From Limisphaerales bacterium (GTDB lineage Bacteria > Verrucomicrobiota > Verrucomicrobiia > Limisphaerales > UBA1096), in NCBI GenBank assembly GCA_004213515.1, contig SHAK01000007.1, positions 21,159 to 85,158 on the forward strand: a DNA stretch of 64,000 nucleotides, in the 5' to 3' direction. Shown one piece after another: positions 44,353 to 47,568 of this stretch (the stretch's first letter is position 1; each line of letters opens with the position of its first letter). The notes under the pieces are model-generated. The model was given only the letters and a program-made list of their open reading frames with translations. It had not been told where the DNA came from and did not search any database. Position numbers and translations under genes: made by a program.

Positions 44353-45522
44353 ATGATCCACCTCGATCATCTAATTACAACCAAACCTCTTCAAGAGGTG
44401 ATTGAGGTAATGCAACCGTGGTTGAAAGACCATTTTGGGTCAGCCAGTTCAGTTAATCAGTCAGGGATAGAAGCACGTGATGCTATTGATGAAGCTCGCT
44501 CAAGCTTAGCAGAGCTCGTTGCTGCCTCGAATGCAGAAGAGATTATTTTCACCTCCAGCGGCACCGAGTCTATCAACCACGCTATCAAAGGTGTTGCATT
44601 AGCAAACAAACGATTTGGTAATCATATTGTCACAACTAATATCGAACACCCTGCCGTAATGGCGTCAATTGCTTGGCTCGAAAAACAAGGGTTTGAGAGC
44701 AGTAAAATCAAGGTAGATAAACAAGGTAGATTCGACCCAAACAAACTGGCACAATCAATAACAGATAAGACTGTACTAGTTTCCTTACACCAAGCAAATC
44801 ATGATCTAGGCGTTATACAACCTATCGCCGAAGCCGCTAAAATCACTGAGCAAAAAGGAATCCCTCTTTTTGTTGATGCCACGTTGAGTGGAGGTTGGCT
44901 ACCAATAGACGTTCAGCAACTTGGTATAGATTTGCTTGCCCTTTCACCCCATAGATTCTATGGACCAAAAGGTGTTGGTGTTCTATATAAAAATAGACGC
45001 ATACCTGTAGAGCCATTGATCCACGGAGGCTTACAAGAAAACGAATTAAGAGCTGGGACTGAAAATATTGCAGCTATTGTTGGTGCAGGTGTTGCCGCAA
45101 TCACTGCAATCGACGAATTCGATCAACGATTCAATCATACAACCAAATTACAAAAACAATTACTAAGTGGAGTTAGACAAACAATTAAAGGGGTGCACCT
45201 TAATGGCCCAGAGCCAGGCCTCGAACGTCTTCCACATCATCTAAGTATAAGTTCAGAAGGCGTGGAAGGTGAAGGCCAAGCTTTGGCAATGGATCTTCGG
45301 GGAATAGCTATTCATGCAGGCTCAGCCTGCACCATAAAGTCCATGCAAATCCCACCCTCACTAAAAGCCATAGGACTTAATGCAGATCTGGCCCGTGGAA
45401 CAACACTCTGGGGAATAGGAACTAATACTACCAATGCTCAAATTTTGGAGGGAATTGAGGTTTTTTCTAAAGTTACCAATCAACTAAGGTCAGTCTCACC
45501 GATCAATAATTTATTGAAATAA
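44353..45522 (+). CDS. NifS/IscS-like class V aminotransferase fold protein, PLP-lysine position is Arg
   Basis: FTSSGTESINHAIKG, IEHPAVMASIAWLEKQGFE, FVDATLSGGWLPID, LSPHRFYGPKGVGVLY, RAGTENIAAIVGAG, HAGSACTIKSM. Confidence 0.88.
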   Translation: MIHLDHLITTKPLQEVIEVMQPWLKDHFGSASSVNQSGIEARDAIDEARSSLAELVAASNAEEIIFTSSGTESINHAIKGVALANKRFGNHIVTTNIEHPAVMASIAWLEKQGFESSKIKVDKQGRFDPNKLAQSITDKTVLVSLHQANHDLGVIQPIAEAAKITEQKGIPLFVDATLSGGWLPIDVQQLGIDLLALSPHRFYGPKGVGVLYKNRRIPVEPLIHGGLQENELRAGTENIAAIVGAGVAAITAIDEFDQRFNHTTKLQKQLLSGVRQTIKGVHLNGPEPGLERLPHHLSISSEGVEGEGQALAMDLRGIAIHAGSACTIKSMQIPPSLKAIGLNADLARGTTLWGIGTNTTNAQILEGIEVFSKVTNQLRSVSPINNLLK

Positions 45523-45584
45523 TAGTCAATGACGCTTGAATCACTCTGTTGAGTTCGTTAAGAAAAGCGCGCTGTTTTTTTGCT

Positions 45585-45815
45585 ATGGCTGACATTGACA
45601 ACAAATACGAGGATAACGCTAAGGGTAAGTTTTACGTAGATGAAGAGTGCATCGATTGCGATTTATGCCGTGAAACTGCTCCTAATTGCTTCACCCGGAA
45701 TGATGATGGTGGCTATTCATTTGTTACTAGTCAACCGGACAATGATGAGGACGAAGAACTATGCCGCGAAGCAATGGAAGGGTGCCCTGTTGAAGCTATT
45801 GGCGATGACGGGTAA
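45585..45815 (+). CDS. small acidic [4Fe-4S] ferredoxin
   Basis: ECIDCDLCRETAPNCF ... GCPVEAI (CxxCxxC...CP); ATG 45585 preferred over listed 45549. Confidence 0.9.
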   Translation: MADIDNKYEDNAKGKFYVDEECIDCDLCRETAPNCFTRNDDGGYSFVTSQPDNDEDEELCREAMEGCPVEAIGDDG

Positions 45816-47118: not shown

Positions 47119-47568
47119 GTGCAAGTGGGCAATAGAGCAAGCTTGAGCAAGCAGAATGATGACCCTAATTATTTAATTCGCCACGATCGTTTCATGGAAC
47201 ATTCCAAAGGATTCCTTGCCGTAGTCGAAGCAGCACGAAACAGTGTAAATGAGATTACAACTGAACAGGCTCATGAACGTTTAGCTAACAATTCTAATAC
47301 GATTCTGATTGATGTACGTGAAGACAGCGAATGGGAAAATGGCCATGTAAAGCAGGCAATTCACCTAAGTAAAGGCATCTTAGAGAGGGATATAGAATCT
47401 GTAATACCAGAGAAGAATTTAGAAATTATCATGTATTGCGGTGGCGGGTATCGTTCGATTCTTACTGCAGAAATATCACAAAGAATGGGATATACAAATG
47501 TGCACTCGCTAATTGGAGGTTATAAGGCAATCAAGGCTGCCAATTGGAAATTAGAAGTCAAACTTTAG
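47119..47568 (+). CDS. rhodanese-like domain protein (true start possibly ATG 47191)
   Basis: TILIDVREDSEWENGHVKQAIHLSKGILE; EIIMYCGGGYRSILTAE active-site-like Cys. Confidence 0.9.
   Translation: MQVGNRASLSKQNDDPNYLIRHDRFMEHSKGFLAVVEAARNSVNEITTEQAHERLANNSNTILIDVREDSEWENGHVKQAIHLSKGILERDIESVIPEKNLEIIMYCGGGYRSILTAEISQRMGYTNVHSLIGGYKAIKAANWKLEVKL

Follow-up and report, generated by a model that had tools for sequence, protein, structure and literature searches.

An IscS-family protein encoded by a Limisphaerales bacterium has probably given up cysteine desulfuration by a PLP-binding lysine, and would instead assist the assembly of Fe-S clusters as a structural or sulfur-handling partner. The corresponding gene was found in a window (the whole stretch of DNA that was analyzed) of 64,000 nucleotides from contig SHAK01000007.1, in which it occupies positions 44353..45522 of the + strand; the codons and genes of the window for which coordinates are given below are also on this strand. 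It is an intact open reading frame with an ATG start, encoding a protein of 389 aa. Judged from its residues, this paralog with an Arg in place of the lysine is very unlikely to be a PLP-Lys desulfurase, which agrees with the proposal made in a previous sequence-only reading of this DNA.

Alignment of the window protein with E. coli IscS shows that the residue corresponding to Lys206 is Arg201 (codon AGA, 44953..44955), within the motif SPHRFYGPKG. Two other pocket residues have also changed, i.e. Gln183 is Leu178 (44884..44886) and Asn155 is His150 (44800..44802). These three replacements had been noticed in the sequence-only reading, which overlooked a fourth, Leu352 (45406..45408), at the position of the active-site Arg354. 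Several residues are kept, including His99 (His104 in E. coli), Asp175 (Asp180), Ser198 (Ser203), His200 (His205), Thr236 (Thr243) and, in the mobile loop, the persulfide Cys326 (Cys328; 45328..45330). As assessed using Pfam, the protein matches Aminotran_5 with 217 bits. It scores below the curated cut-offs for both NifS (TIGR03402; 363 bits for a cut-off of 530.75) and IscS (TIGR02006; 301 bits for a cut-off of 643.2). Its AlphaFold model has a pLDDT of 91.4, with low values only at the Cys loop and the C terminus and a dip near residues 221-240. The low values at residues 325-331, around Cys326, are consistent with a mobile loop. The model superposes on the structures of NFS1, E. coli IscS, and A. 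fulgidus IscS with TM scores of 0.92-0.95. The window protein thus has a class V aminotransferase fold and an IscS-like Cys loop, as indicated by the Aminotran_5 match, the TM scores and Cys326, but it lacks what characterizes a catalytic Group I cysteine desulfurase, namely Lys206, Gln183, Arg354, and the curated NCBIfam scores.

In 146 genomes from the window's order and 289 from the phylum, searches yielded 83 family members that could be read. The sequence-only reading had considered that all orthologs might have a Lys, which is not the case. The residue at this position is an Arg in 76 of the 83 and a Lys in five, the remaining two having a Gly or being truncated before it. The family is retained in 79/146 genomes of the order. 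Outside the order, close homologs (E ≤ 1e-80) are rare, being found in four of the 289 phylum genomes, with Arg in two, Gly in one and a Lys-type IscS in the other. In one homolog (locus L040, genome G411), the lysine motif has been wholly rebuilt (HFRGCGGPVG), with the loop Cys still there.

The Arg at the lysine position is neither a chance event nor an error. A single base separates AGA from AAA, which is all that could be found in support of a sequencing or assembly mistake at codon 201. This residue is encoded by CGN in 74 of the 76 Arg members, genus relatives included, so the AGA of the window gene is not a misread AAA; the orthologs rule out such a mistake, the probability of which we consider negligible. 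The lack of catalytic residues and the scores below the curated IscS and NifS cut-offs would fit a decaying duplicate, i.e. a functionless pseudogene in progress. Nevertheless, this explanation is highly improbable considering that the gene is retained with intact frames in the 79 genomes, that dN/dS between close family pairs is 0.03-0.28, indicative of purifying selection, and that the loop Cys is invariant (75/75 readable Arg members).

The catalytic residues were compared in a smaller aligned set of 22 Lys-type IscS and 25 clade members. The Lys-type proteins have the Lys (22/22), Gln183 (21/22), and Arg354 (22/22), which in the clade are found in 3/25, 0/25, and 0/25, respectively. Gln183 and Asn155 are missing from nearly all Arg members, the former being usually replaced by Ala (Leu in the window) and the latter by His in 61/76, whereas the Arg354 position is occupied by Leu or Ile. 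In contrast, PLP-pocket residues equivalent to His104 (which stacks on PLP; 74/76), Asp180 (74/76), Thr76 (71/76), and Thr243 (59/76) are largely kept, so the pocket may still accommodate non-covalently bound PLP or a different phosphate ligand, with possible consequences for function. Also kept in the clade are IscU-docking residues M/L315, L380-R381, and S384-P385; in E. coli IscS, IscU packs on M315, L383, and P385 (PMC3750173). The five order members with a Lys (f11, f53, and f12; loci L013, L015, L028, L074, and L103) show that this position is not absolutely fixed. They fall inside the Arg clade and are devoid of Gln183 and Arg354, and are likely to represent Arg-to-Lys changes within it. 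No replacement Lys was identified nearby, since the Lys of the GPKG motif varies within the clade.

These patterns bear on whether the protein might still be a PLP-dependent enzyme, neofunctionalized for slow or altered turnover of cysteine or another amino acid with non-covalently bound PLP. The conservation of the pocket residues above in most Arg members, and the presence of a Lys in some clade members, would fit such an enzyme. So would the E. coli IscS K206A variant, which still holds some PLP (PMC9978102). However, both K206A and Q183E variants are inactive as desulfurases (PMC9978102), and in the clade the Lys acting as general base/acid, Gln183, and Arg354 have been lost jointly, the last two being missing even from the members that have a Lys. 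We therefore regard a PLP-dependent activity as unlikely.

The closest known parallel is A. fulgidus IscS, which has no desulfurase activity and donates a Cys ligand to the cluster on IscU (PMC7585200). This protein (PDB 4eb5, 4eb7, and 4hvk) shares the IscS fold with the window protein (TM score of 0.93), and in both Cys328, His104, and Asp180 are kept. The residues equivalent to Lys206/Gln183/Arg354 are Asp/Ala/Leu in A. fulgidus and Arg/Leu/Leu in the window protein, a common triple loss that strengthens the analogy drawn in the sequence-only reading. The two differ in that A. fulgidus IscS is archaeal and has an Asp at the lysine position, whereas the window clade is bacterial, has an Arg and stands apart on the tree. 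A. fulgidus IscS is part of an IscS-IscU pair; in the window clade an iscU gene is adjacent in at least 19 relatives, but the gene in the window's genus adjoins a ferredoxin gene instead. For IscS1 from Methanosarcina acetivorans, which is also devoid of the catalytic lysine, a mode of action similar to that of A. fulgidus IscS has been proposed (PMC7585200); it resembles the window protein, a likeness drawn from the published description, but is archaeal. Canonical E. coli IscS and NifS have in common with the window protein the fold, the Cys loop, and the IscU-docking residues, but have the Lys206, Gln183, Arg354, and Asn155 that it has lost. By sequence, A. fulgidus IscS has a bacterial counterpart in the window protein, and the type is more widespread than that single case suggested.

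Scanning named genomes revealed IscS proteins in which Gln or Leu replaces the lysine, in Nitrospirota, Acidobacteriota, Chloroflexota, Syntrophomonadaceae, and Aquificota (loci L202, L206, L210, L214, L216, L218, L227, L229, L237, L241, and L261). They differ by this residue from the window clade but, like it, have all lost Gln183 and Arg354, and most are encoded next to iscU (or mrp in Aquificota). A Bathyarchaeote IscS has an Asp, as in A. fulgidus. In a SufS-rooted tree computed with the pocket columns masked, the Arg clade (support 100/100) is sister to a Gln/Leu clade (99/89), with 93/88 for the joint node, and A. fulgidus IscS groups with archaeal IscS. A single clade for all Lys-less IscS, i.e. 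a common origin with the archaeal Asp-type, was marginally rejected (p-AU 0.049). Among available structures, PDB 9wfy appears to be a Leu-type protein from Aquificota, and 9wep-9wfe variants of it in which pocket residues have been put back. The 9wep-9wfy series, on which we found no paper, looks as if the PLP site of a naturally Leu-type IscS had been restored step by step.

In the order outside the window's genus, the gene is found in many relatives in an iscU-iscS(Arg)-mrp arrangement. IscU (NifU_N) is encoded within 600 bp upstream in at least 19 of the 76 Arg loci, and Mrp (FeS_assembly_P and NUBPL-type NTPase) within 700 bp downstream in at least 38, these counts being lower bounds because many flanks are cut. 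An antisense ORF ("family 2") seen beside the relatives' genes was in fact iscU read on the opposite strand. The IscU proteins of this operon type are canonical, 12 of the 13 examined having every cluster ligand and an LPPVK motif. SUF is otherwise general in the order (113/146 genomes), but SufB/D are absent from 26/29 genomes with an operon-type IscU, vs. 7/117 of those without it (Fisher p 3e-19, a raw value uncorrected for relatedness or genome incompleteness). Genomes with this IscU and no SUF include G011, G098, G003, G120, G013, and G032 (loci L046, L050, L048, L052, and L067). The SUF-less genomes examined have, in addition, genes for Lys-type NifS, and the sequences read have intact Lys, Gln, and Arg. 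A gene recognized by eye as sulfite reductase-like adjoins some of these nifS genes (L179, L181, and L182), and is a possible source of sulfide.

This organization is reminiscent of the minimal MIS system (MisS-MisU), which is described as containing a cysteine desulfurase (PMC12192291). In the SUF-less relatives, in which SufB/D are absent, no NifU_N-type system was found other than the two-gene iscU/iscS core, but their IscS has no lysine and Mrp is added. When MIS is taken as a desulfurase and a scaffold encoded together in a genome without SUF, 26 relatives fit, except that in 23 the lysine is missing. The window's genome does not, since SUF is present and no IscU is encoded adjacently.

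The neighborhood is different in the window's genus, in which IscU is not adjacent and the gene order is iscS(Arg), ferredoxin, and then cinA. The span of 44353-45815 delimited in the sequence-only reading corresponds to two genes, the second being indeed for a single-cluster [4Fe-4S] ferredoxin (45585..45815; Fer4_13, 80 bits in Pfam). Its start is very likely the ATG at 45585 rather than the TTG at 45549 because relatives begin at the same MAD. In genomes G000, G117, G001, and G094 of the genus, and at locus L189, the ferredoxin gene follows iscS(Arg) on the same strand after 30-84 bp; it was not found beside iscS(Arg) elsewhere in the order. The suggestion that ferredoxin is a general partner is therefore rejected outside the genus, the linked genes in the rest of the order being those for IscU and Mrp/ApbC. 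The neighboring rhodanese and KorAB genes, also put forward as context, show synteny local to the genus, with no further link found. The predicted stand-alone rhodanese (47119..47568; Pfam Rhodanese) is encoded 1.6 kb downstream of iscS(Arg) in the window, and its synteny (in L043) is at genus level only, with no linkage to iscS(Arg) outside it. In genus relatives, there is between the desaturase gene and iscS a gene for a metallo-β-lactamase-fold protein (L043:2147-3250, L045, and L064), which is absent from the window. A search for canonical desulfurases, as advised in the sequence-only reading, showed that in the window's genome (77% complete) contig C12 carries a SUF operon that includes genes for SufS and an IscU-like protein. 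Contigs C82 and C65 encode two Lys-type NifS, both intact, in which Lys, Gln, and Arg are kept. In this SUF operon (L001), the IscU-like protein bears an LPPMK motif, and a gene for a protein with a rhodanese domain directly follows sufS.

Because the altered IscS has been retained order-wide under selection, beside Fe-S assembly genes, it probably aids cluster building without the original chemistry. Cys326 on its mobile loop would transiently ligate the cluster being formed on an IscU-type scaffold, as in A. fulgidus IscS. Alternatively, it might carry a persulfide handed on from another source. The sulfur itself would be provided by free sulfide or by a separate desulfurase of the Lys type. 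It has been reported that H2S can feed Fe-S assembly on IscU in anaerobic IscS-deficient E. coli (PMC13015791). In the SUF-less relatives, in which the linkage is observed, the partner would be the IscU encoded adjacently and the outlet Mrp/ApbC. In the window's organism, the [4Fe-4S] ferredoxin encoded next to it and the IscU-like protein from the SUF operon would be the likely partners, a weaker proposition. In E. coli, ferredoxin docks close to the IscS active site (PMC3750173). With no adjacent IscU and SUF present, a ligand role on IscU is proposed for the window's genus by analogy, and the case for an Fe-S partner role is correspondingly weaker.

A narrower form of this explanation is a strict persulfide relay, in which SufS/NifS or the nearby rhodanese would provide sulfane sulfur for the protein to pass on, and the protein would not ligate a cluster. 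It would account for the invariant Cys326 on a mobile loop, and both the Lys-type desulfurases of the same genomes and the downstream rhodanese could be donors. Yet the rhodanese is unlinked outside the genus, and the only homolog of this kind that has been tested, A. fulgidus IscS, is a cluster ligand. A pure relay is thus improbable, and a partner in Fe-S assembly that has given up desulfuration remains our preferred reading. Extending it, we propose more tentatively, as a view with slightly less than an even chance of being right, that there is a large bacterial clade (including this Verrucomicrobia order, Aquificota, Nitrospirota, Acidobacteriota, Chloroflexota, and others) the SUF-less members of which perform housekeeping Fe-S assembly on IscU with a non-desulfurating IscS. 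This would be an ISC system fed by sulfide or by persulfide in trans, with IscS as a scaffold ligand, that arose separately from its archaeal equivalent.

IscS is usually regarded as the source of sulfur in ISC-type assembly, and annotation pipelines label these Lys-less proteins as cysteine desulfurases. A Lys-less IscS maintained by selection across an order, and encoded together with IscU in SUF-less genomes, allows a direct test of whether IscS has a second role, as a cluster ligand or persulfide acceptor, separable from catalysis. Such a role has so far been proposed from one archaeal protein. This system also makes it possible to test whether sulfide feeds Fe-S assembly in such bacteria.
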